DNA of 64,000 nucleotides from Neoroseomonas terrae. Lineage in GTDB: Bacteria; Pseudomonadota; Alphaproteobacteria; Acetobacterales; Acetobacteraceae. Made by a program: the position numbers and the translations under genes. Location: NCBI RefSeq assembly GCF_018129025.1, contig NZ_JAAEDI010000012.1, positions 1 to 64,000 of the forward strand, read 5' to 3'. Shown in pieces: positions 7,220-64,000 of this stretch. The stretch's first letter is position 1. Every line of letters begins with the position of its first letter. Under the pieces are notes generated by a model. The model was not told the origin of the DNA and searched no databases. It was given only the letters and a program-made list of their open reading frames with translations.

Positions 7220-7246
7220 GCGGATTCCTCCCGAAACGAAGGCATC

Positions 7247-8825: not shown

Positions 8826-8845
8826 CCGGCCCGGTCCCGGCGTCG

Positions 8846-11720: not shown

Positions 11721-11846
11721 CCCGGCGTCGCCTCGACTTCATCGTTCTGTCATCCGCCGAACCCGGTGCCCGTGCGATGGCGCCGCGTCCAACGCGAGGG
11801 AGCCGATGCCGATGCAGCCCGTGACCCGCCTGACCGGCCGAACGCC

Positions 11847-13520: not shown

Positions 13521-13735
13521 ATCGGAGGGGCCCTGCCCCACCGAATCACCCCGCCAGGGGGTTAGACCCCCTGGACCGCAATCTGTTGGTATCGAGCGCG
13601 GCGGTTTCCGGCGCGCTTCGTGCGCAAGGGCGGGTTCCGACAGCAATTCCACCAGCGCCGCACCGCACCAGATTGAGGTTTGCAAAGGCCCTTCGGCCTT
13701 TGCTGGGGTGGCTTGGAGGGGCAAAGCCCCTCCAA
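13521..13735 (+). repeat. Composite four-hairpin repeat, copy A
   Basis: Four palindromes occur in order: an imperfect GGAGGGGC-type stem at 13524-13542; CCAGGGGG/CCCCCTGG at 13554-13561 and 13567-13574; CAAAGGCC-CTTC-GGCCTTTG at 13683-13702; and GGAGGGGC-AAA-GCCCCTCC at 13715-13733. The same order and spacing recur in inverted orientation at 17365-17588 (copy B), including the linking words GGACCGCAAT and CCAGAT..AGGTTT. A partial copy of the right half lies at 30904-30970. It is not an insertion sequence (no ORF). Confidence 0.85.
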
Positions 13736-13807
13736 CTCTACGACGGCAGGATCGGTGCAAGCAGGCGAGGCATCACCGGGTGTCGAGCCCTGGCTGCAAC
13801 AGGCACG

Positions 13808-14674: not shown

Positions 14675-16059
14675 AGCGCATCCCCCAGCAGCCGGGCGAG
14701 CAGCGCGTCCATGCCGAGATGCGGCACGCCGACGCTGCCGGCGGGGTCGAGCCGGGGCGGACGGAATTCGGGCATCCGGAAGAAGCCGGTCTGCCAGAAG
14801 GCGGGTTCGGGCGGTTTCATTGGCACCTCACCCGGATAGATGGTGGCGCCCCGGCCCTCATTCAAAAGGACGCCGCGCACGGCGGCGAAGGCTTGGCCTT
14901 CCAGCATCGCGACCGCGTCCTCGGTGCAGCGAATGGCGGCCAGGGCGTGGAATGAGGTGGCTGCGCCCGATGCCTCCGCCCGGCCGCGCGCGCCGAGCGC
15001 CAGATGCTCCAGCAACGCGGCCAGCGCATCCCGCGCGCGGGTCGGCACGTGGTCCGCCTTGGTCGCGGCGAAGGCCACGCGCGTCGGCGCGGCGCCGAGC
15101 ATGCGTTCGAGCCAGTTGCCACCGGAGACCACCGCCGCGACGGCGGCGAGCGCCTCGGCCGTATCCTCGAAGGCCTCCTGCCCGGCATGCAGCGCGCCGA
15201 GAACGTCCACCAGCACCACCTGGCGGTGGAAGCGCGTGAAGAAGGGATCGAGGAAGGCCGTCCGCTGATCCTCGAGATAGGCCGCGTAGCGGCGGGCGCA
15301 CAGCGCCGCGAGGCCGCCCTGCGCGGTCGGCGGCAACGGGAAGAACCACAGCAGCGGCGCCTCGCCACGTGGGCCGGGGTTCAGGAAGCGACCGGGCTGG
15401 AGAAAGCGCAGGCCGTGATTGTCACGGCAGTCGCGCAGCGCGTCTCGATACAGGGTGAAGCCGCGCTTCGCGAGCGCGTCCTCGGCAGCGGCATCGCCTG
15501 GCAGGGCGTCGATGAAGGCGAGGAAGTCGCGTGCCGCCTCGGCCCGGATGCCCTGGCGCAATCGGGTGAGCGTCGCCGCCGACCAGGCCGCGTAGTCCTG
15601 GCGCAACATCGGCAGGTCGAGCAGCCACTCGCCGGGGTAGTCTAGCAGGTCGAGCGTGACGCGCCGCTCCGGCAGCAGCCCGCCCAGCGACGTGCGCCGC
15701 TCGACATCGATGGCGATAGAGAGCGTGGAAAAGTCCTCGGTGCGTTCGGGCCAATGGGGCGGGTCCGCGGCGAGTGCGCCGAGATGCGCCTCGGGGTCGA
15801 AGCGCGGGATGGTCTCGGTGCCGGCCGGAATGATGCGGACGCGCCGGATGCGGCCGCCCACGGCTTCATCCAGCGCGGGCAAGGTGCGCGCGCCGCGCCC
15901 GGCGGCCAGCAGGTTGGCGATCAGGGAGGTGAGGAAGACTGTCTTCCCGGCGCGCGACAGGCCGGTGACCGCGAGGCGCAGGCGCTCGCGGCCGACCAAA
16001 GCGCGGGCGGCGTCTTCGGTGGTGCCGACGACGCCGCGGATCAGGGCGAAGGGGTCCAA
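14671..16059 (-). CDS. ycjX: YcjX family GTP-binding protein (DUF463)
   Basis: A 462-residue P-loop protein. Walker A is GLSRAGKT at residues 33-40, followed by VFLTSLIANLL. Other family landmarks are VTLDLLDYPGEWLLDLPML (switch/Walker B with DYPGEW), VVLVDVLGALHAGQEAF, and VAFAATKADHVP, which holds the TKAD guanine-specificity motif. YcjX proteins bind GTP and are thought to act at the membrane with YcjF under envelope stress. The gene follows gloA after only three bases and overlaps ycjF, so lpxI-gloA-ycjX-ycjF read as one operon. Confidence 0.9.
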   Translation of the reverse strand: MDPFALIRGVVGTTEDAARALVGRERLRLAVTGLSRAGKTVFLTSLIANLLAAGRGARTLPALDEAVGGRIRRVRIIPAGTETIPRFDPEAHLGALAADPPHWPERTEDFSTLSIAIDVERRTSLGGLLPERRVTLDLLDYPGEWLLDLPMLRQDYAAWSAATLTRLRQGIRAEAARDFLAFIDALPGDAAAEDALAKRGFTLYRDALRDCRDNHGLRFLQPGRFLNPGPRGEAPLLWFFPLPPTAQGGLAALCARRYAAYLEDQRTAFLDPFFTRFHRQVVLVDVLGALHAGQEAFEDTAEALAAVAAVVSGGNWLERMLGAAPTRVAFAATKADHVPTRARDALAALLEHLALGARGRAEASGAATSFHALAAIRCTEDAVAMLEGQAFAAVRGVLLNEGRGATIYPGEVPMKPPEPAFWQTGFFRMPEFRPPRLDPAGSVGVPHLGMDALLARLLGDAL

Positions 16060-20767: not shown

Positions 20768-23080
20768 TCAGAAACGGGTGCCGAAGCCGAGGCGGAAGAC
20801 CTGCGTCTCGTCGTAGGACTTCTTCACCACGGCCTGGGCCAGGTCGATGTTGATGAGGCCGATCGGGCTGCGCCAGGACACGCCGAAGCCCACGCCAACG
20901 CGGGGGGAGGCGTCGTCGCGCACGCAGTTGGGCAGCGTGGCCGGGCAGCCGGAGTTATTCACATTCGTCGGCAGTTCGTAGTTTCCGCCGACATCGACGA
21001 AGACGCGGCCGACGAAGCCGAGTTCAGAGGGCAGCGGCAGCGGGAAGCGGAACTCCGCCGAGGAGGTCCAGATGATCTGGCCGCCAAGGGCGTCGTTGGT
21101 CGAGATGTCACGCGGGCCGGCGCCGCCCAGGGCGAAGCCGCGCAGGTTCTCGCCGCCGAGGAAGAACCGGTCGACGATGCGCGTGTCGCCGCCATTGTAG
21201 GGCAGCAGCCAGCCGCCGCCTGCGGCGAGCACCAGGACGTAGTCCGGGTCGCCCAGCATGCGCTCGAACGGGATGTAGTACTGGCCGTCGCCGCGCAGGC
21301 GGACATAGTAGACATCGCCGCCGAGACCCGCGAGATCGCCACCGCCGCGGATGACGTAGCCGTCGCGGGGTTCGATGCGGCTGTCGCGGCGGTCGTAGGT
21401 GATGGTGGTCGAGAGCTGGCTCAGCAGGGTCGAGCCGGCCTGTTCCTGGATGAAGCGCGAGGTGCTCGGGTCGACGTCGTAAAGCTCGCGATCCACCAGC
21501 GAGTAGGACCACGACTGACGCAGACGCTCGTTGATCTCGTAGCCCATGCGCAGCACGAAGCCGGCGCGGCGCTCATTGTAGCCGGAGGTAGACTGCAGGT
21601 CGCGCTGGACCAGGAAGACGTCGGTGCCGGCGGCGAGGTTGCGCTCGAGGAACTGCGGGTCGGTCACCGAGATGTCGACCTGGCTGCGGTACTGCGCGAG
21701 CGTCACGTTGATGCGGGCATCGATGCCGGTGCCGAGCAGGTTGCGCTCGCGGAGGCCCACGTCGGCGAGGAAGCCGGCATCCGTCGAGTAGCCGCCGCCG
21801 AGGGTGAACTCGCCGGTCGCCCGTTCCGCCACCTGGGTGTTCAGGATGACGCGGTCCGACGCCGAGCCCGGCGAGGAGTTGATCTGCACATCCGAGAAGA
21901 AGCCGAGGCTGCGGATGCGGTCGCGCGACCGGCGAACCTGCTGGGTGACCAGCGGATCGCCTTCGGCAAGGCGGAACTCGCGCCGAATGACGCGGTCGAG
22001 CGTACGCGTGTTGCCCGTGATCTCGATGCGCTCGACGAAGGCGCGCGGCCCCTCGGTGATCTCGAAGGTCAGATCGACCGTGCGCTGCTCGCGATGGCGC
22101 ACGACGCGGGGCTCGACATTGGCGAAGGGGAAGCCGCGCGTGGCGAGCAGGTCGGTCAACAGGTTGTCGGCGCGGTCCACCGCGTCGCCATCGTACCACT
22201 CGCCGGGCGAGATCGGGATGTCGCGCTGCACCGAGGCGGGGTCGAGCCCGCGCAGGGTGCTGGTCACGTTCACCTCCCCGATGCGGTACCGCGGGCCTTC
22301 GTTGATCGTGTAGGTCAGGAAGAAGCCGCTGCGGTCAGGGGCGAGTTCCGCCGTCGCGCCCGTGATCTCCACGTCGGCATAGCCCTGGCGCAGGTAGAAG
22401 CGGCGCAGCAGCTCGCGGTCGAAGTTCAGCCGGTCGGGGTCGTAGGTGTCGGAGGTCGACAGGATCCGGTACCAGGCCTGCTCGCGCGTCGCGATGACCT
22501 CCTTCAGCCTGCTGTCTGAGTAGTCGGTGTTCCCGACGAAGTTGATGCGCGCGACCAGCGCCACTTCGCCCTCATTGATCTCGAAGACGACGTCCACGCG
22601 GTTCTGGTCGAGCTCGATGATCTTAGGTTCGACGGTGGCGCCGAAGCGGCCGCGGCGGGCGTAGATCTCGAGGATGCGCTGGCGGTCGGCCTGGGCGGCG
22701 GCGGGCGTGAAGACCGAGCGGGTGCGAAGCTGCACCTCATTGCGCAGGACATCGGTGGTGATGCGGCGGTTGCCCTCGAAGCCCACGCGGTTGACCAGCG
22801 GGTTCTCGACGACGTTGACGATGATGCGGCCGCCTTCGGGGCGGATGGTCACGTCGCGGAACAGGCCGGTCGCGAACAGCGCGCGCAGGCTGCGGTCGAG
22901 CGCATCGGGGTCGGCGGTGCCGCCGGGCTGGACCAGCATGTACGATCGGATGGTGTCCGCCTCGATGCGCTGGTTGCCCTGCACCTCGATCGCGGTCACG
23001 CGCCCGGGCGCCTGCGCCGAGGAGGGAAGCGCCACGAGCAACGCGGCGAGGACGAGGAGGAGGGTGCGCAGCCTGGTCAA
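20768..23080 (-). CDS. bamA: Outer membrane protein assembly factor BamA
   Basis: A 770-residue Omp85 protein, the essential insertase for outer-membrane beta-barrels. A signal peptide ends SSAQA. Five POTRA repeats follow, the first starting RVTAIEVQGNQRIEADTI and the later ones showing VGFEGNRRITTDVLRNEV, INFVGNTDYSDSRLKEV, the GEVNVTSTLRGLD segment, and IEITGNTRTLDRVIRREF. The barrel contains FFLGGENLRGFALGGAGPRD, the conserved VRGF-type loop, and ends in LGFGTRF with terminal Phe. Gene order rseP-bamA-ompH-lpxD is as expected. Confidence 0.96.
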   Translation of the reverse strand: MTRLRTLLLVLAALLVALPSSAQAPGRVTAIEVQGNQRIEADTIRSYMLVQPGGTADPDALDRSLRALFATGLFRDVTIRPEGGRIIVNVVENPLVNRVGFEGNRRITTDVLRNEVQLRTRSVFTPAAAQADRQRILEIYARRGRFGATVEPKIIELDQNRVDVVFEINEGEVALVARINFVGNTDYSDSRLKEVIATREQAWYRILSTSDTYDPDRLNFDRELLRRFYLRQGYADVEITGATAELAPDRSGFFLTYTINEGPRYRIGEVNVTSTLRGLDPASVQRDIPISPGEWYDGDAVDRADNLLTDLLATRGFPFANVEPRVVRHREQRTVDLTFEITEGPRAFVERIEITGNTRTLDRVIRREFRLAEGDPLVTQQVRRSRDRIRSLGFFSDVQINSSPGSASDRVILNTQVAERATGEFTLGGGYSTDAGFLADVGLRERNLLGTGIDARINVTLAQYRSQVDISVTDPQFLERNLAAGTDVFLVQRDLQSTSGYNERRAGFVLRMGYEINERLRQSWSYSLVDRELYDVDPSTSRFIQEQAGSTLLSQLSTTITYDRRDSRIEPRDGYVIRGGGDLAGLGGDVYYVRLRGDGQYYIPFERMLGDPDYVLVLAAGGGWLLPYNGGDTRIVDRFFLGGENLRGFALGGAGPRDISTNDALGGQIIWTSSAEFRFPLPLPSELGFVGRVFVDVGGNYELPTNVNNSGCPATLPNCVRDDASPRVGVGFGVSWRSPIGLINIDLAQAVVKKSYDETQVFRLGFGTRF

Positions 23081-51973: not shown

Positions 51974-52627
51974 CTACTGACTTGCCCAGATGATCCGGTG
52001 CATCCAGGCGATCTCCGGCAGTTCGAAGCTGTAGGAAGGGTGGGCGGGATTCAGGCTGGCGAGTTCGATGCGCTTGGCCGATTGCCGGCGAAGTTCCTTC
52101 GCCATCACCTCGCCCCTGGCGGTGCGGACTACGACGCGGTCCCCGCGGCGGACGGGCGCGGCGGGGGAGACGACGACGACGTCTCCATCGCGGAACACGG
52201 GCTCCATCGATTCACCCGAGATCTCGAGCGCGTAGGCGTTCGGGTCACCGATCTCGGGTAGGGAAATCTCGTCCCAGGAGCCACCCACGGGGTAGCCGCC
52301 ATCGTCGAAATACCCCTCCCCTCCCGCCTGGGCGAGGCCGATCAGCGGAACCCGGCGACCCACGCCGCCGCGGCCACCGCCGCCGCGCGGCAAGGCCGGC
52401 AGTCCGGAGACCAGCGAGGCGAAATCCTCGATGCCGCGGCCGGTGGCGGAGAGGACCTTGGCGACGCTTTCTGTCGAAGGCCAGCGTGCGCGCCCGTCCA
52501 CGCCGATGCGCTTGGACGGGTTGAAGGCGGTGGGATCGAGCCCTGCCTTCCGGGCCAGGCCCGAGGCCGACAGCCCGTGTTCGGCCGCGAGGGCGTCGAG
52601 GGCGCGCCAGATGTCGTCATGCCGCAT
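51974..52627 (-). CDS. S24/LexA-type transcriptional repressor with HTH
   Basis: A 217-residue regulator. The N-terminal helix-turn-helix covers residues 5-60 (LSASGLARKAGLDPTAFNPS). A Gly-rich linker leads to a LexA-like autoprotease domain with cleavage site A101-G102 (PLIGLAQAGGEGYFDDGG), Ser140 (ISGESMEPVFRDGD) and Lys177 (GEVMAKEL); the 37-residue spacing equals that of LexA. Self-cleavage on DNA damage is therefore expected. It faces away from the phage genes and probably represses them and itself. Close relatives also occur as ordinary chromosomal regulators in alphaproteobacteria, so it may not belong to the phage. ATG 52627 excludes an AT-rich upstream extension. Confidence 0.88.
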   Translation of the reverse strand: MRHDDIWRALDALAAEHGLSASGLARKAGLDPTAFNPSKRIGVDGRARWPSTESVAKVLSATGRGIEDFASLVSGLPALPRGGGGRGGVGRRVPLIGLAQAGGEGYFDDGGYPVGGSWDEISLPEIGDPNAYALEISGESMEPVFRDGDVVVVSPAAPVRRGDRVVVRTARGEVMAKELRRQSAKRIELASLNPAHPSYSFELPEIAWMHRIIWASQ

Positions 52628-52767
52628 GGGGGGTGCGCTTTCCGTGACGCGGCCATCCGACTCCAGATGATGTGCCGCTTCTGGGCAGGCTATCCTAGGT
52701 TTTGTTTCGGAAATCAATAGGAAAATGATCCTTTTGCGGCTTGCCCGCCACAACCAGCACGGTTAAT

Positions 52768-52782
52768 GTTCTTGTATTGTTC
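52768..52782 (+). promoter_or_regulatory. SOS (LexA) box, alphaproteobacterial type GTTC-N7-GTTC
   Basis: The plus strand reads GTTC TTGTATT GTTC, an exact fit to the direct-repeat LexA box of alphaproteobacteria. It lies 22 bases before the start of the first rightward gene (52804) and 141 bases from the divergent repressor start. The surrounding patch (52690-52790) is distinctly AT-rich. DNA-damage control of the rightward genes is the natural reading. Confidence 0.75.
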
Positions 52783-52803
52783 TCTTGATAGGCGAGACCC
52801 CCA

Positions 52804-53178
52804 ATGCGACCTGCCCCCCGCAGCGCTCATACCCCCCGCTTCGCCAGCATCGCCGCAGCCGAGCCGTTCCGCTCGGCCGAGGAGGCCTGGTTCTGGACCA
52901 TGGCCGCGCTGACCGCGCGCCGCGACGGCGCCCGCATCTCCGCCGGCAAGGGAGAGAAGGTCCGGCCCTGCGAACCGGACGACGTGATCAAGTGCCTGGA
53001 CCGACTGTACCGCCACCGGCGGATCGACCTGATCCACGCCCGCGTCATGCGGATCTGGGGCGAGCGCGGCACCGCCCCCGACCCTCGGCACCTGTCCGAA
53101 CGCGCGGATGCGGCGCAGTGGCGGGAGGCGATGAACCGGCTGGAATGGCCGCTGCGAGTGAAGGGGATCGTGGCGTGA
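52804..53178 (+). CDS. Hypothetical protein at the start of the phage module
   Basis: A 124-residue protein. The conserved-looking core is FRSAEEAWFWTMAALTARRD, then RPCEPDDVIKCLDRLYRHRR, HARVMRIWGERGTAPDP and REAMNRLEWPLRVKGIV. Trp, Arg and charged residues in helices suggest a small nucleic-acid- or protein-binding factor. No named domain recognised. It is directly downstream of the SOS box and overlaps the next gene as GTGA, so it is likely among the first genes made on induction. An early regulator (for example an activator of late genes) is possible but unproven. Confidence 0.8.
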   Translation: MRPAPRSAHTPRFASIAAAEPFRSAEEAWFWTMAALTARRDGARISAGKGEKVRPCEPDDVIKCLDRLYRHRRIDLIHARVMRIWGERGTAPDPRHLSERADAAQWREAMNRLEWPLRVKGIVA

Positions 53179-53663
53179 CGACGCCCGGGCATCGGGATGT
53201 GACGACGCCGCAGAATCACGGCGCGACCCCGCGGCTCCGCGCGGCCCGGGAGGCGGCGCAGGAGGTCTGGATCGCCTTTGGCGGCGAGGCAGACCAGGTC
53301 TGGCTGCGCCCGCTGCGCCGCGGCTTCCGCCACTGTTTCGCCGCGCTGCGAGACGAAGCGGGCTGGACTGTGCTGGAACCGCTCTCCGGCCGGCTCGTCA
53401 TCGCGCGGCTGGCGGTGGCTTCCGGCTATGACCTGCCTGGCTTCTATCGACGCGCGGGGTTGGCAGTCGTCGGACCCTTCGCGCCGGGGCCCGCGCGGGT
53501 GGCCTGGCTGCCGGCGCTGCTGCCCTTTACCTGCGTCGGATTATGCCGCGCGGTCCTCGGAGCCGGCGCGCCGCGCGCGGTGACGCCCTGGGGGCTGTTC
53601 CGCCGCCTCGCGAAGATTCTTCGCGATGATAAGAAAAAATTCTTGACCGCTCGCCAATATTAG
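53175..53663 (+). CDS. Hypothetical protein with possible permuted papain-like site
   Basis: A 162-residue protein. The conserved-looking parts are LRRGFRHCFAALRDEAGWTV (His53), LEPLSGRLVIARL, then LLPFTCVGLCRAVLG (Cys120) and VTPWGLFRRLAKIL. A His before a Cys in FTCV-type context recalls circularly permuted NlpC/P60 or papain-like proteins (YiiX type). That would make it a candidate cysteine hydrolase acting on peptidoglycan or peptide bonds; this is my inference from spacing and context only. It ends in a Lys-rich tail. The GTG start overlaps the preceding gene; a strong terminator follows. Confidence 0.75.
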   Translation: MTTPGHRDVTTPQNHGATPRLRAAREAAQEVWIAFGGEADQVWLRPLRRGFRHCFAALRDEAGWTVLEPLSGRLVIARLAVASGYDLPGFYRRAGLAVVGPFAPGPARVAWLPALLPFTCVGLCRAVLGAGAPRAVTPWGLFRRLAKILRDDKKKFLTARQY

Positions 53664-53731
53664 GTCATTAGTCCTCTCGCCAAGGGGCGTACTGCGCCCG
53701 ATGGCCTTCCTCCGATCCCCCATGACCTTGC

Positions 53732-53773
53732 GCGAGCCCGTCCTCCTCATCGGAGGGCGGGCTCGCTGCTTTT
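53732..53773 (+). terminator. Strong rho-independent-type terminator
   Basis: GCGAGCCCG-T-CCTCC (53732-53746) pairs with GGAGG-G-CGGGCTCGC (53752-53766) through 14 Watson-Crick pairs and one T-G, with a five-base loop, and is followed by TGCTTTT. It separates the two small SOS-box genes from the structural genes, so structural expression needs read-through, antitermination or a separate promoter. Confidence 0.85.
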
Positions 53774-53822
53774 CGGGGATGTCGGCGGGAGTTCCTCGCA
53801 TCCGAGAAGGAGCTGCGCGCGC

Positions 53823-54059
53823 ATGGGTGGCCTGTTCCGCGCCCCGAAGCCTGTCGTCGTCGCCCCCGCGCCGGCGCCGGCGACGACTGTCACCACCGAT
53901 CCCACCCAGGCGGCCGAGCAGGCCGCCGCTACCGCCCGGGCCGAGACACGCGCCCGCAGCCGGAACGGCCTGGCGGGCACGGTCGCCACCTCCGCCCGCG
54001 GCCTGCTCGGCGCGCGGGCGGATTTCGGCGCCACGCGCAAATCGCTGCTGGGGGAATGA
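53823..54059 (+). CDS. Small phage protein before the portal gene
   Basis: A 78-residue protein starting MGGLFRAPKPVVVAPAPAPA and continuing with Thr/Ala/Arg-rich sequence to LGARADFGATRKSLLGE. AAGGAG at 53807-53812 supports the ATG at 53823. Small proteins with this M-G-G-L-F start and a C-terminal GxRKxLLG-type end are common at this position in phage structural operons; role unknown. Its stop is four bases from the portal start. Confidence 0.7.
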   Translation: MGGLFRAPKPVVVAPAPAPATTVTTDPTQAAEQAAATARAETRARSRNGLAGTVATSARGLLGARADFGATRKSLLGE

Positions 54060-54063
54060 TGCC

Positions 54064-55473
54064 ATGACGCCCGAGGACATCCTTGCGCGGCACGCCCGCG
54101 CAATCGACCAGCGGCGCGCCTATGACGCGCTCTGGCAGGATTGCTACGACCACGTCCTGCCGGCGATGCCCGCCGAACGGGTCGCGATCTATGACGCGAC
54201 GGCGGCGGATGCGGCGGAACAATTGGCCGCCTCGTTGCTCGCCGAGCTGACGCCCCCCTGGTCTCGCTGGTTCGGACTGGCACCGGGGCGGCCGTTGGAG
54301 GGCGATGCCGAAGCCAGCATTGCGCTGGAGGAAGCGGCGGAGACGCTGCAAGGGCATCTCGATCGCTCGAACTTCACTCTCGAGATGCATCAGGCCTTCC
54401 TGGACCTGGTGATCGCCGGCACCGGCGTGCTGCTGGTCGAGGAAGCGCCGCCGGGCGAGCCTTCCGCCCTGCGCTTCACCGCCGTGCCGCTGGGCGAGGC
54501 GGTGCTGGAGGAAGGACCGTCCGGGCGGCTCGACACCGTCTATCGCGCGGCGCGGCTGACCGAGGCGGAACTGCGCCGGCGCTATCCGGCGGCGCCGTTG
54601 CCGCCCGCGTCCCGGGACGAGGCCGAGGAGAGGCAGCATCGGGTGGTCGAGGCGGTATGGCCCGACTGCGACGGCACGCGCTTCATGGCGATCGCCGCGA
54701 CCGACGCCGGCCCGGTGGTGCTGGCGGAAGGGCGCTTTTCGCAGAGCCCATTCATCGCCTTCCGCTGGCTGAAGGCGCCGGGCGAGATCTATGGCCGCGG
54801 GCCGGTCGCGAAGGCCCTGCCCGACATCCGCACCGCCAACAAGGTGGTTGAGCTGGTACTGAAGAATGCCTCCATCGCCGCGACCGGCATCTGGCAGGCC
54901 GATGATGACGGCGTGCTGAACCCGGCCACGGTGCGGCTCGAACCGGGTGCCATCATCCCGAAGGCGCCGGGGTCGTCGGGGCTCACGCCACTCGCGGCAC
55001 CGGGCAACTTCGATGTGTCGCAGCTCGTGCTGACCGATCTGCGGGCGCGCATCCGCGGGGCGTTGCTGGCGGACCGGCTGGGGCCGCAGCGCAAGGACAA
55101 CATGACGGCGACCGAGGTGCTGGAACGCGCCGCCGAGACGGCGCGGCTGCTCGGCGCGACGTATGGGCGGCTGCAATCGGAGCTGCTGACGCCGCTCGTC
55201 GCGCGCTGCCTCGGCATCCTGCGGCGGCGCGGGGAGATCCCGCCGCTGCTGCTCGATGGGCGGGAGGCGGTGCTGCGGTATCGCAGCCCGCTGGCCCAGG
55301 TGCAGGGCCGCACCGATGCGGCGAACACGCTGCTGTTCCTGCAGGCGGTGCGCAGCATGGGCGATGCCGCGCTGGCGCAGGTCGACCTGCCGGCCGCCGC
55401 CCGCTGGCTGGGCCGGACGCTGTCCGCACCCGCCGAGATCCTTCTTCCCCCCGTTCAGGCCGACAAGGAGTAA
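54064..55473 (+). CDS. Phage portal (head-tail connector) protein, T7 gp8-like
   Basis: A 469-residue podoviral portal, the dodecameric ring through which DNA is packaged. It starts HARAIDQRRAYDALWQDCYD and has the TPPWSRWFGLAPG motif seen in T7-type connectors. WLKAPGEIYGRGPVAKALPD, IRTANKVVELVLKNASIAAT, KDNMTATEVLERAAETARLL and GATYGRLQSELLTPLVARCL follow. The length is slightly below T7 gp8 (about 535). The ATG at 54064 gives the family N-terminus; the longer frame crosses the terminator. First of the uninterrupted structural series. Confidence 0.9.
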   Translation: MTPEDILARHARAIDQRRAYDALWQDCYDHVLPAMPAERVAIYDATAADAAEQLAASLLAELTPPWSRWFGLAPGRPLEGDAEASIALEEAAETLQGHLDRSNFTLEMHQAFLDLVIAGTGVLLVEEAPPGEPSALRFTAVPLGEAVLEEGPSGRLDTVYRAARLTEAELRRRYPAAPLPPASRDEAEERQHRVVEAVWPDCDGTRFMAIAATDAGPVVLAEGRFSQSPFIAFRWLKAPGEIYGRGPVAKALPDIRTANKVVELVLKNASIAATGIWQADDDGVLNPATVRLEPGAIIPKAPGSSGLTPLAAPGNFDVSQLVLTDLRARIRGALLADRLGPQRKDNMTATEVLERAAETARLLGATYGRLQSELLTPLVARCLGILRRRGEIPPLLLDGREAVLRYRSPLAQVQGRTDAANTLLFLQAVRSMGDAALAQVDLPAAARWLGRTLSAPAEILLPPVQADKE

Positions 55474-55476
55474 GCC

Positions 55477-56214
55477 ATGCCCGAGGATCTGCTGGAGACC
55501 GCGCTCGCCGACGATGCCGCGTCGCAGAAGGGCGGCCGTCCGGACGATGTGCCCGAGAAGTTCTGGGATGCCGAGGCGAACGCGATCCGCGTCGAGGCGC
55601 TGCTGAAATCCTATCGCGAGCTGGAGAAGCGGCTGTCCCAGCGCGTCGCCCCGCCGGGCGAGGATGCGCCGGTAGAGGAGCGGTTGCGCTTCCGTCGTGC
55701 CGTCGGCGTGCCGGATGCGCCGGAGGAGTATGCGATCGAGGCGAAGCACGATCTCTGCTGCGCGGATGATGCGATCAATGCGCGGCTGCACGAGGCGGGA
55801 TTCAGCCAGCAACAGGCGCAGCTCGTCTATGACCTGGCGGCCGAACGCCTGCTGCCGCTGATCGCGGAGGCCGCGAGCCAGTTCGAAGCGGAGCGGCAGA
55901 TCGAGACGCTGCGCGCGCATTTCGGCGGCGAGGAACGCTTCCGTCGGATCGCCGGGCAGATCACCGCCTGGGGTCGGGCGAACCTGCCGGCGCCGGTGAT
56001 GGAAGCGCTGTCCAGCACCGCCGAGGGCGTGATCGCGCTGCATCGGATGATGGAGGCGAAGGAGCCAGGCCTGGCGCCGCGCGCCGATGCGAACGCCACG
56101 ACGGATGAGACCGAGCTCCGCGCGATGATGCGCGACCCGCGCTACTGGCGGACGCGGGAGCCGGAATTCGTGCGCCGTGTGACCGATGGATTCCGTCGGC
56201 TCGTGAAAGGCTGA
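55477..56214 (+). CDS. Capsid assembly scaffolding protein, T7 gp9-like
   Basis: A 245-residue acidic, helical protein. The N-terminal part contains RPDDVPEKFWDAEANAIRVE and LLKSYRELEKRLSQ, which is typical of phage scaffold/assembly proteins (VPEKFWD..LLKSYxxLE). Long charged helices follow, ending in MRDPRYWRTREPEFVRRVTD. Scaffolds direct capsid shell assembly and then leave. It lies between portal and capsid genes, exactly as in T7. Confidence 0.85.
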   Translation: MPEDLLETALADDAASQKGGRPDDVPEKFWDAEANAIRVEALLKSYRELEKRLSQRVAPPGEDAPVEERLRFRRAVGVPDAPEEYAIEAKHDLCCADDAINARLHEAGFSQQQAQLVYDLAAERLLPLIAEAASQFEAERQIETLRAHFGGEERFRRIAGQITAWGRANLPAPVMEALSSTAEGVIALHRMMEAKEPGLAPRADANATTDETELRAMMRDPRYWRTREPEFVRRVTDGFRRLVKG

Positions 56215-56439: not shown

Positions 56440-57273
56440 ATGTCGGGCACCATCGAACAGGCTTTCGTGAAGCAGTTTGAGGCCGAGGTCGCCGAGGCCT
56501 ATCAGCGCCAGGGCAGCAAGCTGCGCCCGACCGTGCGCTCCAAGAGCGGCGTGAAGGGTGCGAGCACCATCTTCCCGCGCGTCGGCAAGGGGACGGCGGC
56601 GGCCAAGGCGCGCAACGGCGTCGTGCCGGTGATGAACCTGGAATACGCCAACGCCGAATGCTTCCTGCAGGACTACTATGCCGGCGAGTGGATCGACCGG
56701 CTCGACGAGATCAAGTCGAGCATCGACGAGCGCACGGTGATCGCCAATGCCGGCGCCTATGCGCTCGGCCGCAAGACCGATGAGCTGATCGTCGCCGCCC
56801 TCGACACCGCGACGGCCGAGGCGGTGGGCGTCGGCTCGGGCCTGACCGACACTGACGGCCTCACCAAGCAGAAGGTGCTGATGGCCTTCGAGATGCTGGG
56901 TGCAGCCGATGTTCCGGATGACGGCAACCGCTTCGCGGTGGTCGGCTGGAAGCAGTGGTCGGAGCTGCTGCAGATCGACGAGTTCGCCCGTGCCGACTAT
57001 GTCGGCGACGATGCGCTGCCGTGGAAGGGCACGCAGGCGAAGCGCTGGCTCGGCGCGCTGTGGATGCCGCATTCCGGCCTGACCAAGGCGGGGACGCTAC
57101 GCTACTGCTACTTCTACCACCGCACCGCGGTGGGTCATGCGGTCGCTTCCGAGGTCGTCACGGACATCACCTGGCATGGCGATCGCGCCGCGCATTTCGT
57201 GAACAACATGATGTCGCAGGGGGCGGTGATGATCGACCCGACCGGCGTCGTGCGGATGCGCGCCAAGGAGTGA
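56440..57273 (+). CDS. Phage major capsid protein
   Basis: A 277-residue capsid protein of the podoviral type. Key stretches: QAFVKQFEAEVAEAYQRQGS near the N-terminus, STIFPRVGKGTAAAKARNG, QDYYAGEWIDRLDEIKSSID, VIANAGAYALGRKTDELIVA, FAVVGWKQWSELLQIDEFAR and ITWHGDRAAHFVNNMMSQGA. The gene order between scaffold and tail tubular A also fixes the assignment. It is shorter than T7 gp10A (345). ATG 56440 is preceded by a GAAAGGGA site. A long inverted repeat follows. Confidence 0.88.
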   Translation: MSGTIEQAFVKQFEAEVAEAYQRQGSKLRPTVRSKSGVKGASTIFPRVGKGTAAAKARNGVVPVMNLEYANAECFLQDYYAGEWIDRLDEIKSSIDERTVIANAGAYALGRKTDELIVAALDTATAEAVGVGSGLTDTDGLTKQKVLMAFEMLGAADVPDDGNRFAVVGWKQWSELLQIDEFARADYVGDDALPWKGTQAKRWLGALWMPHSGLTKAGTLRYCYFYHRTAVGHAVASEVVTDITWHGDRAAHFVNNMMSQGAVMIDPTGVVRMRAKE

Positions 57274-57412: not shown

Positions 57413-57434
57413 TCCATTTAGGAGGAATCCCCCG

Positions 57435-58004
57435 ATGGCGCTCTCCGCCCTCGCGCTGTGCTCGCGCGCGCTGTTGAAGATCGGCGCGCAGCCTGTCGCC
57501 TCGCTCGATGAAGGCACGGCCGAGGCCGAGGTGGCGGCCAATCTCTATCCGGGCATTCGCGATGCGCTGTTGTCGGCGCATCCGTGGTCCTTCGCGACGG
57601 CGCAGGCGGCGCTGGCTCGGCTGGCGGCGGTGCCGCGCGCGGATTTCGCGCATGCCTTCCAACTGCCGGCCGGCTTCCTGCGGGCGCTGTCGGCGGGATC
57701 TGCGGGGCGGGCGCGGGGCATCGTGTACCGGCTGCAGGAGGACCGGCTGTTCACGGATGCGGAAAAGGTCGCGCTGACCTATGTCTTCCGGCCAGACGAA
57801 GGCACCTTTCCGCCGTTCTTCGCCGGTGCGCTGGTGGCGCGTCTGGCGGCGGAGTTCTGCATTCCGCTGACGGAGAACAGCTCTCGGGCCGAGATGCTGT
57901 ATCGCCTCGCCGACGCCGAGCTGCGGGTTGCGCGCCAGGCCGACAGCCAGCAGGCGAGCGCGCGGACGATCGAGAACTTCCCCCTCATCAGCGTGCGGGG
58001 CTGA
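57435..58004 (+). CDS. Tail tubular protein A, T7 gp11-like
   Basis: A 189-residue protein forming the upper ring of the podoviral tail. It begins ALSALALCSRALLKIGAQPV and continues with AANLYPGIRDALLSAHPWSF, FAHAFQLPAGFLRALS, VALTYVFRPDEGTFPPFFAG and LAAEFCIPLTENSSRAE, the standard gp11-like sequence of many T7-like and N4-like phages. Length equals T7 gp11 (196). GGAGG at 57421-57425 sets the ATG at 57435. It ends three bases before tail tubular B. Confidence 0.9.
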   Translation: MALSALALCSRALLKIGAQPVASLDEGTAEAEVAANLYPGIRDALLSAHPWSFATAQAALARLAAVPRADFAHAFQLPAGFLRALSAGSAGRARGIVYRLQEDRLFTDAEKVALTYVFRPDEGTFPPFFAGALVARLAAEFCIPLTENSSRAEMLYRLADAELRVARQADSQQASARTIENFPLISVRG

Positions 58005-58007: not shown

Positions 58008-59885
58008 ATGCCGGCGGTGAAGCGAGCGAAGACGAGCTTCGCGGCAGGGGAGCTGGCGCCGGAGCTGCTCGGGCGCGGTGATCTTGGGGCCTTCGACAAC
58101 GGGGCGCGGCGCCTGCGCAACGTGTTCATCCAGCCGACGGGGGGCGTGACGCGGCGGCCCGGGCTGCGCCATGTCACGAGCCTGCCCGGGCCGGCGCGGC
58201 TGATCCCGTTCGAGTTCAATACCGAGCAGACCTACCTGATCGTGCTGACGGCGGGCCTGCTGCGCGTGTTCCAGGGCGATGCGGAGATCGCAGCGCTCGG
58301 CGGGCCGTGGTCGGGCGCGATGCTGCCGCAGATCGGCTTCACGCAGAATGCCGACACACTGCTGCTGACGCATCCGGAGATGCGGCCGCAGCGCGTGACG
58401 CGAACGGCCTCGGGCTGGACGATCGGCGCGTGGTCGTTCGCGGCGGAGCCGTTCGCGCGGTTCGCCGGCGGCGATGTCGCTGTCGTGCCAAGTGCGACGA
58501 GCGGCAGCATCGTGGTCGATGCAACGGCGGCGGTCTTCTCGGCCGGACATCTCGGTGCGCGGCTGCGGGTCGAGGGGAAGAAGGTGCTGGTGACGGCGGT
58601 GCATTCGTCGACGCGCATCATCGCGACGGTGGAGGAGACGCTGTCGGCGGCCGGCGCCACCGCGGACTGGGATGAATCCGCCTTCAGCGATGCGCGGGGC
58701 TGGCCGGTGACATGCTGCTTCCATCAGGATCGGCTGGTCGTCGGCGGATCGCGGGATCTGCCGAACCGGTTGTGGCTGTCGCGCACCGGGGAACTGTTCA
58801 ACTTCGACATGGGCACGGGCCTCGACGACCAGGCGATCGAGTTCGGACTTCTGTCCGACCAGGTGAATGCGATCCGTGGGCTGTTCTCGGGCCGGCATTT
58901 GCAGGTGTTCACCTCGGGCGCCGAGTGGATGGTCACAGGCGATCCGCTGACGCCTGGCAACATCCAGCTCAACCGGCAGACGCGCGTGGGCTCGCCGGTG
59001 GATCGGCTGGTGCCGCCGGTCGACGTGGACGGATCGACCGTCTTCATCGCGCGTGGTGGGCAAGGCGTGCATGAGTTCGCCTATACGGATCTCAACCAGG
59101 TCTATCAGGCGAACGACCTCGCCATCCTCGCGCGGCATCTCGTCCGCACGCCGGTCTCCATGGCCTACGACCAGGGGATGCGGCTGCTGCACATGGTCAT
59201 TGCCGATGGCAGCCTGGCGACGCTGACGATCTATCGCGCCGAGCAGGTGACGGCCTGGACACGGCAGGAGACGGATGGCGCCTTCCGCACCGTCGCCGAG
59301 GCCGAAGGTACGGTCTGGGCCGTCGTCGAACGCGCCGGCGCCTTCATGCTGGAACGCTTCGAGGCCGGCCTCTCGCTGGATGCCGCGCTGACCGGCGCGG
59401 CATCGGTGCCGCAGGACGAATGGAGCGGGCTCGGCCATCTCGAAGGACGCCAGGTCGGCGTGCTGGCGGAAGGGGCACCGCGTGCGGCGACGGCCGTGTC
59501 GGGCGGTGCCGTGGTGCTCGACCCGCCGGCCACCGCGGTGCAGGTCGGCCTGACCTTCCGGCACGAGATCGAGCCGCTGCCGCCCGAGCTGATTGCCGCC
59601 AGCAGCGCGGCGACCGGGCCGCTGCGGCTGGTCGCCGTGACGTTCCGGCTGCTGGATACGGCCGCGCTCGCCGTCGATCTCGGCCGTGGCGCGGAACCCG
59701 TGCCGTTCCGACGGCTGGACGCCGCGCTGCTGGACGCCGCGCCGCCCAGCTTCACCGGTGACGTCACGCTGCGCGGCCTCGGTTGGCGGCGCGACCGGCT
59801 GCGCCCGCTGTGGCGCATCGACAGCGACGTGCCGCTGCCGATGACGCTGCTTTCCGTCACCACCGAGATCAGGATCACCGACTGA
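58008..59885 (+). CDS. Tail tubular protein B, T7 gp12-like
   Basis: A 625-residue beta-rich tail nozzle protein. The N-terminus KTSFAAGELAPELLGRGDLG then GARRLRNVFIQPTGGVTRRP is highly typical. TLLLTHPEMRPQRVTRTASG, WPVTCCFHQDRLVVGGSRDL, LPNRLWLSRTGELFNFDMG and VFTSGAEWMVTGDPLTPGNI follow, all seen in podoviral nozzle proteins. T7 gp12 is longer (794). It overlaps the next gene at TGATG. Confidence 0.9.
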   Translation: MPAVKRAKTSFAAGELAPELLGRGDLGAFDNGARRLRNVFIQPTGGVTRRPGLRHVTSLPGPARLIPFEFNTEQTYLIVLTAGLLRVFQGDAEIAALGGPWSGAMLPQIGFTQNADTLLLTHPEMRPQRVTRTASGWTIGAWSFAAEPFARFAGGDVAVVPSATSGSIVVDATAAVFSAGHLGARLRVEGKKVLVTAVHSSTRIIATVEETLSAAGATADWDESAFSDARGWPVTCCFHQDRLVVGGSRDLPNRLWLSRTGELFNFDMGTGLDDQAIEFGLLSDQVNAIRGLFSGRHLQVFTSGAEWMVTGDPLTPGNIQLNRQTRVGSPVDRLVPPVDVDGSTVFIARGGQGVHEFAYTDLNQVYQANDLAILARHLVRTPVSMAYDQGMRLLHMVIADGSLATLTIYRAEQVTAWTRQETDGAFRTVAEAEGTVWAVVERAGAFMLERFEAGLSLDAALTGAASVPQDEWSGLGHLEGRQVGVLAEGAPRAATAVSGGAVVLDPPATAVQVGLTFRHEIEPLPPELIAASSAATGPLRLVAVTFRLLDTAALAVDLGRGAEPVPFRRLDAALLDAAPPSFTGDVTLRGLGWRRDRLRPLWRIDSDVPLPMTLLSVTTEIRITD

Positions 59886-60325
59886 TGGCCCAGCTCGCCA
59901 CCATCGCCTCGCTCGCCGGCACCGGTCTCGCCGTCTACGGCCAGGTCCGACAGGGACAGCAGCAGAAGGCGACGAACCGGGCGCAGGAGGAGAACCTGCG
60001 CGCCCAGCAGACCGCGCAGCAGGAACAGGCCGCGGTGCAGGCGGCGGCGAATGAGCGTGCGCGGCAGGAGAAGCTCGCCAGCACCATCGCCTCCGCCCGT
60101 GCGCGGGCAGCGGCCGGCGGCATCGCGCCCGACGAGGGATCGGCCGCCGCGCTGACGGGCGGGCTGCGTTCGGATGCGGCGAAGGAGGCCGCGGAGGATG
60201 CCTCCTTGATGAGCGCGCGGCTTGCGAGCGGGCGGCGCTCGCTGCTCGCCTCCGACGGCAGCTTCAACAGCTTTCTGCGCGCGGGGCAGACGCTCGGCGG
60301 CGCGGTACGCAACCTGCTCGTATGA
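59885..60325 (+). CDS. Small coiled-coil virion protein (possible T7 gp14-like internal protein)
   Basis: A 146-residue protein: a hydrophobic N-terminal segment (TIASLAGTGLAVYGQVRQGQ), a Gln/Ala/Glu-rich helix of some 45 residues (QQTAQQEQAAVQAAANERAR), then AAAGGIAPDEGSAAALTGGL and a Ser/Arg-rich end. This plan (membrane-active start, coiled coil, PxxGS motif) fits gp14-like internal core proteins that insert into the outer membrane during DNA ejection. T7 gp14 has 196 residues. Position after tail tubular B agrees. The expected large partners gp15/gp16 do not follow. Confidence 0.7.
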   Translation: MAQLATIASLAGTGLAVYGQVRQGQQQKATNRAQEENLRAQQTAQQEQAAVQAAANERARQEKLASTIASARARAAAGGIAPDEGSAAALTGGLRSDAAKEAAEDASLMSARLASGRRSLLASDGSFNSFLRAGQTLGGAVRNLLV

Positions 60326-60578: not shown

Positions 60579-62858
60579 ATGAGCGAACACATCACGATCG
60601 GCGATGTCGCGCCGCGCGTGCAGTATGTCGCGGACGGCGTGCTGGCCGAATTCACCTACCCGTTCCCGATCTTCGAGGAGGCGGATCTCGAGATCCGCCT
60701 CGACGGCGCGGTGCTGGCCGGCGGTGCGACCATCGCGGGCGCCGGCATCGCCGAGGGCGGCAGCGTCGTCTTTCCGGAGGCACCGGCAGCCGGCACGCGC
60801 ATCACGCTGCGCCGCCGGCTCAAGATCGCCCGCGCGACGGATTTCCAGGCGAACGGCATCCTGCGCGCGCGCAGCCTGAACGATGAGCTCGACTACCAGG
60901 TGGCGGCGATCCAGCAGGTGGCAGACGATGTGGCGGGCGCGCTGCGGATCGATCCGTCGGAGGCCGGCAATCTCATCCTACCGCTGCGCGGGGCGCGGGC
61001 GAACCGTGTGCTCGGCTTCGATGGCTCGGGCGACCTGGCCGTGTTCGACCGCGGCACGGGGTTGCTCGGCGTCCCCTTTCCCGGCGGCGTGCCTCGCAGC
61101 GTGGAGGACAAGCTCGCCGAGCGGCTGACCGCCAGGGATTTCGGCGCGACCGGCGACGGCGTGACGGATGACGGGCCGGCGCTCGCCGCCGCCATGGCCG
61201 CGGCCGCGGCCTCGGGACGCGTGCTGGTGATCGGCGAGGGCACGCACCGCACCACACAGCCGCTGGTTCTCGGCGGCGGGGCGGCCGGGCTGATCATGCA
61301 CGGATCGATCCTCTATGCCGGGCCGGACGGGCACGCGGCGCTGACGCTCGGCGACGGTGCCGCCGTGCGCAACGCATCCAAGCGATATGAGGGGCTGCGG
61401 GTGATCCGCGCCGTGATCTCGGACTGGATGAACGAGGCCGATATCGGTCTGGTCATGCGCAATCTCGACGCATCCTTCGTCGAGATCCGCCAGGTCGAGG
61501 GCTTCACGATCGGCATCCGCACCCAGGGCGTCGAGCGCGGCTTCGAGGACACGACGCTGATGCTCGGCCGCATCGTGAACAACCGGATCGGCCTCGACGT
61601 GCGCACGGAGACGGCGGCGGCGTGGAACACCTCCGTCCGCTACTACGGTGGGCACTTCGCCATCGGAAGCGCCGTCCACACCGACAAGGACCGGTTCGGG
61701 ATTCGCCTCTCCGCAGCGCCCGGAGCCTATGTGGCGCACAACCGGCACCTGTTCGACGGACCCGGCTTCGAATTGCAGGCGACGGGCAGGCCGATCAGCG
61801 GCATCCCGGTGCTCTGCGAGGTGAACAGCCGCTCGGTCTGGGTGCGCGGCATGCGGATGGAAAGCTGCAGCGCCTTCGCGGCGCGTCACACGGCCGGCGC
61901 GCAGGATCATGTCTATGAGGTGGCCTGGGCCAGCCAAGCCTATCTCGTCAGCGTCGACTACACGGCGACGGCAACGCGCACCGGCGCAGTGGTGCGCGCC
62001 TACCACCAGTCGGCCGCCTTCCGTGAATCGAGCCGTGAGGTTGGCAGCGTGCCGAACCTGCGCGCGGCGCGCATCCGCTGGTCGAACAGCGAATCGGGCT
62101 TCGACAGGTTGGCCTGCCTATCATCGAACGTGTCGGGCAGCCCGGCGACGCTCGCCGATTTCGCCTTCGCCGCGCTCGATTCCTACGGTTTCACCGACCA
62201 GGGCGTCGTGCTGACCGGCGGGCGGGGCCTCGGCTTCGTCGTCGATGCCCGCAATTGCCGGGACTTCGCACTGGCGGTGGATGCCGACGCGCCGCGCGTG
62301 GCGGTGATGTGCTTCGACGCCAACCGCAACCTGCTAAGCGACGGCGGCACGCCGTTGGTCCGCGCTTCGGGCCAGTCGCTGGTATGGAATGCGGCGGCAC
62401 GCTGGTACCAGGGCTCGGCCGACATGGCGGATGCGACGCTGACGCGCCCGCAGGTCGTGCATCTCGAACCGCAGGTCGCCTACGCGATCATCGGCCTGGC
62501 GCGCATCGGCACGGATTATGAGGTGCGCGCGATGCGCCTCGGCTGCGATCCGCTGTTCGCACCGCCGCTGCTGTACGGCCTGCCCGGGCTGCCGCATGGG
62601 GCGCGCGAGCTGGTGGCAGAGACGGTCTGGGACGCGCCGTCGATCGCCGCGGGGGGCTCGGCGACGGTGAGCGTGCCGCTGGTCGGCGCACGGCCGGGGG
62701 ATTTCGCTTCGGCAGCGTTCTCGCTGGCGACCTCCGGCGTGGTGTTCCTCGCCCAGGTGGGGGCGACGGATGTCGTGACCGTCACCGCCTGGAACCGGAC
62801 CGCCGCCGCGGTCGATCTGAACGCCGGGACGGTGCGGGCACGCGTGGTGAAGGCATGA
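60579..62858 (+). CDS. Phage tail fibre/tailspike with T7-like anchor and beta-helix
   Basis: A 759-residue receptor-binding protein. Residues 1-130 are a T7 gp17-like particle-anchoring domain (YVADGVLAEFTYPFPIFEEA; TRITLRRRLKIARATDFQ; LNDELDYQVAAIQQVADDVA). A helical neck (GVPRSVEDKLAERL) precedes a right-handed beta-helix starting TARDFGATGDGVTDDGPALA, the pectate-lyase-like opening of polysaccharide-degrading tailspikes. The C-terminal 130 residues form a separate beta-domain. The target is likely a surface glycan. ATG 60579 follows a GGA-rich site; the upstream frame crosses non-coding DNA. Confidence 0.88.
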   Translation: MSEHITIGDVAPRVQYVADGVLAEFTYPFPIFEEADLEIRLDGAVLAGGATIAGAGIAEGGSVVFPEAPAAGTRITLRRRLKIARATDFQANGILRARSLNDELDYQVAAIQQVADDVAGALRIDPSEAGNLILPLRGARANRVLGFDGSGDLAVFDRGTGLLGVPFPGGVPRSVEDKLAERLTARDFGATGDGVTDDGPALAAAMAAAAASGRVLVIGEGTHRTTQPLVLGGGAAGLIMHGSILYAGPDGHAALTLGDGAAVRNASKRYEGLRVIRAVISDWMNEADIGLVMRNLDASFVEIRQVEGFTIGIRTQGVERGFEDTTLMLGRIVNNRIGLDVRTETAAAWNTSVRYYGGHFAIGSAVHTDKDRFGIRLSAAPGAYVAHNRHLFDGPGFELQATGRPISGIPVLCEVNSRSVWVRGMRMESCSAFAARHTAGAQDHVYEVAWASQAYLVSVDYTATATRTGAVVRAYHQSAAFRESSREVGSVPNLRAARIRWSNSESGFDRLACLSSNVSGSPATLADFAFAALDSYGFTDQGVVLTGGRGLGFVVDARNCRDFALAVDADAPRVAVMCFDANRNLLSDGGTPLVRASGQSLVWNAAARWYQGSADMADATLTRPQVVHLEPQVAYAIIGLARIGTDYEVRAMRLGCDPLFAPPLLYGLPGLPHGARELVAETVWDAPSIAAGGSATVSVPLVGARPGDFASAAFSLATSGVVFLAQVGATDVVTVTAWNRTAAAVDLNAGTVRARVVKA

Positions 62859-63172
62859 GCGGCGGGCCGGAGGCCGGGCCGCGCAGGCCCGATCTGCGCG
62901 CGGCGATGGGTGTGGTGGCGGAGGAGTACTTCCGCTTCCTTCAAGGCGGGCCGGAACCGGGCACCGGCGACGACACCAAGGCCTTCGCCGCGCATCACGC
63001 GGCGTGCCGGGCGGCGCTCGCGCATCTCGAACATCTGCTGAAGCTGGCCCGCGCAATGGGCGAGCCCGACAGCGGCGTCGAGGAAGTGACGACCTTCCTG
63101 ATCGAGGCCCGCCAGGCGCTGTCCGCATTCGAGCAGGAGGAGGATCCGCATGGCGAGGAAGAGCAGTCCTGA
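62855..63172 (+). CDS. Small phage protein, possible small terminase subunit
   Basis: A 105-residue acidic helical protein: RPDLRAAMGVVAEEYFRFLQ, AFAAHHAACRAALAHLEHLL, VEEVTTFLIEARQALSAFEQ and a Glu-rich end. Its start overlaps the tail fibre stop (ATGA) and its end overlaps the large terminase by 23 bases. In T7 the small terminase gp18 (89 residues) sits just before gp19, so a TerS role is suggested by place and size only; no DNA-binding motif is evident. Confidence 0.65.
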   Translation: MSGGPEAGPRRPDLRAAMGVVAEEYFRFLQGGPEPGTGDDTKAFAAHHAACRAALAHLEHLLKLARAMGEPDSGVEEVTTFLIEARQALSAFEQEEDPHGEEEQS

Positions 63173-64000
63173 CGCCGGCTTCCTCGAATTCGTCTGGGTC
63201 TGGAACCGGCGGCTGAACAACGACACGCCGTCGGTGCACCGGCGCATCGCGCGCTGGCTGGAGGCGCGCGACGCGGCCGACGAACGCCGCCTGCTGCTGA
63301 TGGCCTTCCGGGGCTGCGGCAAGTCGACGCTGGTCGGGCTATGGTGCGCATGGCTGCTGGCTCAGCGGCCGCAGACGCGCATCCTGGTGCTGGCTGCCGA
63401 TGCGTCGCTGGCCGTGAAGATGGTGGCGTCCGTGCGGCGCATCGTCGAGCGGCATCCACTGTGCAGGCACCTGCTTCCGGATGGGTCGGAGGCCTGGGCG
63501 TCGGACCGCTTCACCGTCGCGCGGGATGGCGCGCTGCGCGATCCGTCGATGCTGGCGCAGGGCATCGGCGGCAATGTTACCGGGAACCGCGCCGAGGTGA
63601 TCGTCTGTGACGATGTCGAAGTCGCGGGCAATTGCGACACCCCGGGCAAGCGCGCGGAGCTGCGCGAGCGACTGGCGGAAGCCGAGTTCATCCTCGTACC
63701 CGGCGGCACGATCCTGTTCGTCGGCACGCCACACTGCGAGGACAGCCTGTATCGCCCCCCGGCGGAGGAAGGCGCGTTCCTGCGCGGCTATCGCCGGCTC
63801 GCGGTGCCGGTAATGAATGCGGCGGGCGTCGCGGCCTGGCCGGAGCGCTTCTCGCGCGACGCCATTGCCGCGCTGCGCGACCGTGTCGGTCCGTTGCAGT
63901 TCCAGCGGCAGATGATGCTGCAGGCGGTGGCCTCGTCGGCGGTGCGGCTCGATCCGGCGGCGATGGTCCGGTACGGCGACGAACCGGACTATCGCGAGGC
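63150..64000 (+). CDS. Phage terminase large subunit (partial, runs off window)
   Basis: The first 283 codons of a DNA-packaging ATPase/nuclease, T7 gp19-like. The opening FLEFVWVWNRRLNNDTPSVH is typical. Walker A is FRGCGKST (residues 53-60). ILVLAADASLAVKMVASVRR and GNVTGNRAEVIVCDDVEVAG, with the Walker B acidic pair at 154-155, follow. Next is the coupling motif region VPGGTILFVGTPHCEDSLYR. The nuclease domain lies past the right edge. GGAGGAGG just upstream supports the ATG at 63150. TerL last in the order matches T7. Confidence 0.92.
   Translation, partial: MARKSSPDAGFLEFVWVWNRRLNNDTPSVHRRIARWLEARDAADERRLLLMAFRGCGKSTLVGLWCAWLLAQRPQTRILVLAADASLAVKMVASVRRIVERHPLCRHLLPDGSEAWASDRFTVARDGALRDPSMLAQGIGGNVTGNRAEVIVCDDVEVAGNCDTPGKRAELRERLAEAEFILVPGGTILFVGTPHCEDSLYRPPAEEGAFLRGYRRLAVPVMNAAGVAAWPERFSRDAIAALRDRVGPLQFQRQMMLQAVASSAVRLDPAAMVRYGDEPDYRE

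Follow-up and report, generated by a model that had tools for sequence, protein, structure and literature searches.

What kind of element places the structural genes of a podovirus behind an SOS box and a repressor of the self-cleaving type? We addressed this question for a locus of Neoroseomonas terrae contained in a stretch of 64,000 nucleotides, hereafter the window, which corresponds to bases 1-64000 of contig C12 in a genome of 5.77 Mb. The first-pass annotation described a podoviral module behind an SOS box, which is correct but too narrow, since the module is an element of ca. 13 kb that occurs across the Alphaproteobacteria and is largely inherited with its hosts. We consider, with a probability of around 70%, that it is an ancient and domesticated element of podovirus type, akin to gene transfer agents (GTAs), mostly inherited vertically and wired to DNA damage.

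The module comprises the repressor, two small ORFs, designated A and B, and genes for the connector, scaffold, capsid, tail tubes, spike, terminase and lysis. The repressor, a LexA/CI-type protein of 217 aa with an S24 peptidase domain (Pfam Peptidase_S24, 5.4e-21), is encoded in the minus strand (51974..52627). ORF A (52804..53178; 124 aa) and the overlapping ORF B (53175..53663; 162 aa, GTG start) had been proposed to lead into phage structural genes, as they indeed do, and all are in the plus strand. These are a small protein (53823..54059; phrog_831, 4.3e-4), a T7-type head-tail connector or portal (54061..55473; PF12236, 5.4e-129), a capsid assembly (scaffold) protein (55477..56214; PF05396), the major capsid protein (56440..57273; PF19821; the listed frame opens at 56395 and the family match starts at 56440), tail tubular proteins A (57432..58004; phrog_394) and B, or nozzle (58008..59885; phrog_376), an internal virion protein (59885..60325; phrog_418), a tail fibre or spike with a T7-fibre-like N-terminus, below the Pfam cut-off, and a pectate-lyase-like domain (60579..62858), a small protein in the position of the small terminase (62855..63172; phrog_31793, of function not known), and a T7-type large terminase (63150..64000; phrog_38) that ends beyond the window, at contig base 64592. 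The terminase is followed by a coiled-coil-like protein and then by the initial portion of a cell-wall hydrolase.

From the repressor to the hydrolase, we recognised neither an integrase nor a polymerase or any other gene for replication. The module proteins scanned gave no Pfam or PHROG match to phage RNA polymerase, DNA polymerase or primase/helicase, for which reason we rejected that the element is an autonomous T7-like phage. A tyrosine integrase next to the module is part of another insertion, an integrative element at around 65530-77320 of C12 (ca. 3530-15320 of locus L001) that apparently lies inside the terminal hydrolase gene, and two separate parts matching the uninterrupted hydrolase gene of locus L035 flank it, as judged by eye from the translations. 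With its lysis hydrolase gene apparently interrupted, release of particles from the copy in this strain may be impaired. Many class-level loci, such as L288 and L302, encode 3' of the capsid gene a small protein with a YANGFTLWHY-like peptide (phrog_18004), which was not found in the window. Far from the module, at 21145-21230, ARAGORN called a tRNA-Cys with anticodon ACA, which is unusual for cysteine and possibly a false call.

The regulatory region at the start of the module had been credited with a repressor retaining its cleavage site, Ser140 and Lys177, and with an exact LexA box, and both stood up to scrutiny. The A101-G102 cleavage site and the two catalytic residues are present in all 26 repressors of the family set, including that of the window (residues were counted in 26 repressors; the alignment has 24 rows). 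Direct reading of the sequence likewise identified in the plus strand the exact alphaproteobacterial box GTTCTTGTATTGTTC (52768..52782), separated by 21 bases from ORF A and with the S24 repressor diverging from its other side. The promoter motif of the alphaproteobacterial LexA regulon has been reported as GTTC-N7-GTTC (PMC3323433), which is the arrangement found before ORF A. This motif occurs twice in the 64-kb window against 0.85 matches expected, so that the window taken alone is at about chance level; in the whole genome there are 142 matches against 39 for a reversed control pattern, and the lexA gene of this genome has its own box, GTTCTATTTAGGTTC, which precedes the matched part of the gene by 68 bases. 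A 15-mer identical to GTTCTTGTATTGTTC also appears at positions 137232-137246 of contig C13 of the same genome, between a gene resembling surA by eye and a small ORF, and no second module was found there.

Conservation in related genomes was much more informative. Of the 26 repressor-A intergenic regions of the family, window included, 20 have the box at the corresponding place, always in the plus strand and with a spacing of 7 (spacings of 3-6 and 8-13 were found in 0 loci), and 200 dinucleotide shuffles of these regions contained a mean of 0.105 and a maximum of two boxes. These 26 regions derive from 30 family loci after leaving out L045, which has an insertion between the repressor and A, and L047, L051 and L053, with the repressor or A outside the stretch; a box with one mismatch is at the corresponding place in L045 and L046. 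Of 27 loci from other families of the class, 9 have an exact box close to a module gene according to an automatic rule, and 18 have none; the box precedes the capsid gene in the split clusters L285 and L316, and a small gene plus the connector in L291 and L301. The search for GTTCN7GTTC before homologous modules was thus positive within and outside the family, including other promoters of the module. The box before ORF A is therefore not a chance occurrence, being conserved in place and strand, and its conservation supports the SOS reading of the module, from which binding by LexA and induction are predicted.

The box is missing from six of the 26 family loci, four of them in genomes with lexA (G016, G011, G102 and G005). 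Among the 37 genomes in which we sought lexA, it was not found in the module genomes G044, G050, G502 and G383, whose modules have no box; the genome of G050 is 82% complete. Three small genomes of 0.9 Mb (L304, L305 and L306) keep podoviral capsid genes in a rearranged form; lexA was not found in two of them and gave only one weak partial match in the other, and no exact box was found in their stretches. Of the 12 class-level modules in which the repressor was matched well, nine keep its residues and three do not. In L292, L302 and L310, the repressor is devoid of the cleavage site and of both Ser and Lys, and neither A nor B is preceded by an exact box.

A second conserved element of the repressor-A region, ATCCTAGG-N15-CAATAGGAA (52692..52723; no strand assigned), is bipartite and may be the promoter and/or operator of the repressor. 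Its best match has a spacing of 15 in 23 of the 26 family loci, a count that includes some matches with several mismatches and has no shuffle baseline, and a search of the genome gave no other match with fewer than three mismatches.

The structural genes could be linked to the SOS box through one of the small ORFs. Both had been put forward as candidate late activators; late control is likely and A is a candidate for it, but B fits another role better. ORF A has 62% mean column identity, corresponds to no known family in the libraries tried, and its AlphaFold model is all-helical (mean pLDDT of 81). ORF B contains conserved His53 and Cys120 residues and has a relative (30%) elsewhere in this genome, at the same place before the connector but within a prophage-like region of ordinary type, which together fit better with a virion or processing protein and make B less likely than A as late regulator. 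This prophage-like region (L064; G000:C18:1-20000) is a second one of podoviral type, whose connector and capsid show 30-38% identity.

Between ORF B and the structural genes there are three conserved features, all of them read in the plus strand. Inside the 3' end of ORF B is the late-promoter-like motif TAAGAA-N7-TTGAC (53630..53647), whose general form, TA[AG]GAA-N7-TTGA[CT], is found once in the window and in 19 of 27 family loci, four with a spacing of 8, and never in 300 mononucleotide shuffles; it is absent from all 19 class-level loci searched. A -35/-10 pair with at least 9 matches of 12 surrounds the motif in 13 of 28 loci (mononucleotide shuffles: 0.95); the pair of the window scores 8, below this threshold, and we found no standard sigma-70 promoter within its positions 52600-54100. 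Then come a small hairpin, GGGCG-N4-GCGCCC (53685..53699), which precedes the terminator in 19 of 27 loci, and a strong hairpin resembling an intrinsic terminator, with a stem of 15 pairs followed by a T-rich stretch (53732..53766). Terminator hairpins with a stem of at least 9 pairs occur in 21 of 27 family loci (shuffles: mean 1.4, maximum 4). Antitermination systems, such as that of lambda Q, have this arrangement of a promoter running into a terminator ahead of late genes. In Caulobacter, a GTA cluster has been reported to be under both activation and anti-termination (PMC11150451). The conserved motif and terminator make a late activator or antiterminator likely, and A could be this regulator.

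It is also conceivable that LexA binds the box and that A-B fulfils a separate SOS function, with the structural operon being controlled otherwise. Five family genomes (L311-L315), chosen because A was found but no connector, have lost the structural genes; the repressor, ORF A and the GFTLWHY capsid-side gene remain in all five, with an exact box before A in four, suggesting that A may act without a particle. Against this, the late-promoter-like motif and the terminator are conserved and immediately separate A-B from the structural genes, and elsewhere the box itself precedes the capsid gene or a small gene and the connector, so we regard a separate function as unlikely.

Is the module, then, an ordinary prophage, its remnant, or a resident of the chromosome? 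A connector of the same lineage, with 64-86% identity to that of the window, is present in 30 of 150 family genomes, window included, in a single place per genome, which in one case is truncated by the end of the contig. Two further genomes have fragments, and distant connectors (27-38% identity) are separate from this lineage. The connector, scaffold, capsid, both tail tubes, spike and terminase are in the same order in the 26 uncut loci of these 30, and only two of the frames checked fall below 80% of their length in the window, namely those of the large terminase in L039 and of ORF A in L047, the latter at the edge of its stretch. At the level of the order, 103 of 250 genomes proved to have ORF A, and the capsid profile matches 84 of 385 class genomes. 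The capsid lineage proper (E<1e-100) is in 58 of these, window included, belonging to 35 family codes and in some cases having genomes of 0.9 Mb; the remaining 26 have E>1e-35, except for one fragment, leaving a gap between lineages. The module is normally in single copy per genome. We fetched 27 class-level stretches, 19 of which include the connector, and several others are split or cut; pyrD is downstream of the module in six of them and in 10 of 29 family stretches, and upstream in two class-level stretches (L298 and L316).

Decay of a prophage, with boxes and genes as relics, would agree with the reduced loci L311-L315, with stop codons inside the capsid match in two of the 58 genomes (G331 and G515), and with the apparently interrupted hydrolase. 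This explanation is nevertheless highly implausible, given the collinearity and length of the core genes and the low dN/dS of all of the 14 module genes that were compared. For these genes, the window and L035, from two species of the genus, give dN/dS values of 0.06-0.35, with 0.06 for the repressor and 0.09 for A, and a dS of 0.34-0.96, around the 0.54 of a chromosomal neighbour.

Distances from five concatenated module proteins and from rpoB were strongly correlated in 49 genomes (Pearson 0.908), a value as high as this appearing in 0 of 2000 permutations. The corresponding trees have 18 of 46 splits in common, against a mean of 0.32 and a maximum of three with random labels, and of the 29 well supported splits of the module tree, 11 contradict supported splits of the rpoB tree, indicating that some transfer or tree error exists. 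At the level of sequence comparison, therefore, the module has been under purifying selection and has co-diversified with its hosts, and host-restricted prophages could account for part of the correlation. Taken further, the module might be an ordinary temperate podovirus with replication and integration genes elsewhere, or a mobile satellite, whose likeness across hosts reflects host-restricted infection. The phage-type structural genes, the 11 tree conflicts and the insertions in some loci agree with this, but the normally single copy, the position beside pyrD in several families and the permanence in genomes of 0.9 Mb do not. Comparisons with viruses also argue against it: among the best 80 of 551 confirmed relatives in viral contigs, none exceeds 16,214 bases (many are fragments or trimmed proviruses); the best capsid match in GenBank phages is 55%, in a 5-kb faecal fragment, followed by 45% in Pelagibacter phage Hodr; and ORF A has no match in 50,697 GenBank phage records at E 0.01. 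All in all, we find such a phage or satellite very improbable.

The domesticated, GTA-like element that we favour shares with GTAs three features, readable from sequence, of the definition set out in PMC9662315. Its particle proteins are of Caudoviricete origin; it appears fully endogenized, being chromosomal, of conserved order, often beside pyrD and with no recognised integrase or replication gene; and its inheritance is mostly vertical, with co-diversification with the host (Pearson 0.91, with the common and conflicting splits given above). The element would pass to descendants as part of the chromosome, its place often being flanked by a RogA-like repressor gene and pyrD. In undamaged cells, LexA would sit at the promoter of A and, probably together with the S24 repressor, hold the A-B operon off. 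Upon DNA damage, RecA filaments would lead to the inactivation of LexA and, as suggested by its catalytic residues, also of the repressor; A, possibly with B, would then turn on the structural genes as an activator or antiterminator acting at the conserved promoter-like motif that runs into the terminator. The structural genes would build a short-tailed particle, which most likely packages host DNA, because the element of ca. 13 kb has no recognised replication or integration genes, and which would exit by lysis and might transfer this DNA.

A similar particle might kill or lyse rather than deliver, as a domesticated, SOS-induced element that packages host DNA in the manner of PBSX. The SOS box and the pectate-lyase-like tail spike would suit a killer particle equally well; the low dN/dS of the connector, scaffold, capsid and terminase argues instead for real DNA packaging, and we deem this alternative improbable. 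PBSX of Bacillus subtilis is SOS-induced, and differs from the podoviral module in its contractile tail and Gram-positive host. It is considered a GTA-like element that packages host DNA fragments of 13.4 kb (PMC12946183). The same source describes FpGTA of Faecalibacterium, a GTA-like operon with podovirus-like morphology that its authors call the first podovirus-like GTA-like element; the module would resemble it in these respects. Compared by description, FpGTA differs in its 10.5-kb operon and in its host, a Gram-positive gut bacterium, and no SOS box is mentioned for it in the portion of the source considered (PMC12946183).

Among phages, the T7-like Pelagibacter phage EXVC031P Hodr has homologous capsid (45%) and connector (35%), but it is a phage genome of 34 kb, and ORF A of the module has no match in the phage collection. 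The lineage of Sulfitobacter phage PhiGT1 also includes alphaproteobacterial podoviral modules with partly vertical descent, although its group consists of dual tubeA temperate and lytic phages (PMC10386132); the terms gene transfer agent, Acetobacter and Rhodospirillales do not occur in the main text of that article. In the literature searched, no title or abstract describes an alphaproteobacterial podoviral GTA-like element of this kind. The module looks like an undescribed kind of GTA. The link to LexA is not new by itself, since a LexA site has been predicted before the RcGTA-type cluster of Dinoroseobacter shibae (PMC6473078). If active, the module would be a GTA with a type of particle that the literature searched does not describe for Alphaproteobacteria, present in dozens of families, including streamlined genomes of about 0.9 Mb, and coupling its production to DNA damage. 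It makes testable whether podoviral particles act as GTAs in Alphaproteobacteria, whether RcGTA and the module exclude each other, and where the RogA repressor of RcGTA-type systems comes from.

Like the module, RcGTA and the CcGTA of Caulobacter are alphaproteobacterial, vertically inherited phage structural clusters with no replication genes. GTA_TIM (PF13547), which we take to be a domain of the RcGTA-type tail protein and a marker of RcGTA, was absent from all 43 module genomes tested, with the Caulobacter control matching. We thus rejected membership of the module in the RcGTA family (Rhodogtaviriformidae), and its ancestor would be a different one, a T7-type podovirus. The domain is present in 36 of the 385 class genomes and in 0 of the 58 module genomes, where 5.4 were expected (Fisher 0.003, with genomes counted without correction for kinship). 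The control of both elements has points in common, because CcGTA has an HTH-S24 protein, RogA, that represses two small activator genes, gafY and gafZ (PMC9632790). RogA has an HTH and an S24 domain, 213 aa and GGAA-N4-TTCC operators, and reportedly lacks key residues (PMC9632790), unlike the module repressor, which keeps its catalytic residues; the LexA box conserved across genera is another difference of the module. Operators of this type, within one mismatch, occur in 9 of 26 family loci (shuffles: mean 2.4, maximum 8). The repressor of the window, likened to RogA by description and not by its sequence, is likely a relative of it and possibly a member of its family.

Homologues of the repressor also appear in genomes with the RcGTA marker. 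In the 36 GTA_TIM genomes, 20 full homologues and a partial one could be aligned, and the cleavage site and both catalytic residues are kept in 19 of the 20. Fifteen of the 20 (thus in 15 of the 36 genomes) are adjacent to pyrD, no gene of the module being recognised between the two, and the box was found in 0 of the 20 stretches. In the reduced locus L312, pyrD comes directly after the remaining repressor, A and capsid-side gene, indicating that the module can be lost from this place. We tentatively propose, as a reading somewhat short of even odds, that there was a second and older lineage of alphaproteobacterial GTAs, podoviral and SOS-wired, and that, where this module was lost and replaced by RcGTA, its orphan repressor beside pyrD, RogA, came to govern the activators of RcGTA. 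If so, the best-studied type of GTA would owe its control to the immunity repressor of a GTA that has vanished. Two of the GTA_TIM genomes show further variants of this arrangement: L421 has beside pyrD a repressor homologue that lost the residues, and in L408 a sequence weakly resembling ORF A (3e-4) is on the side of the repressor homologue away from pyrD.
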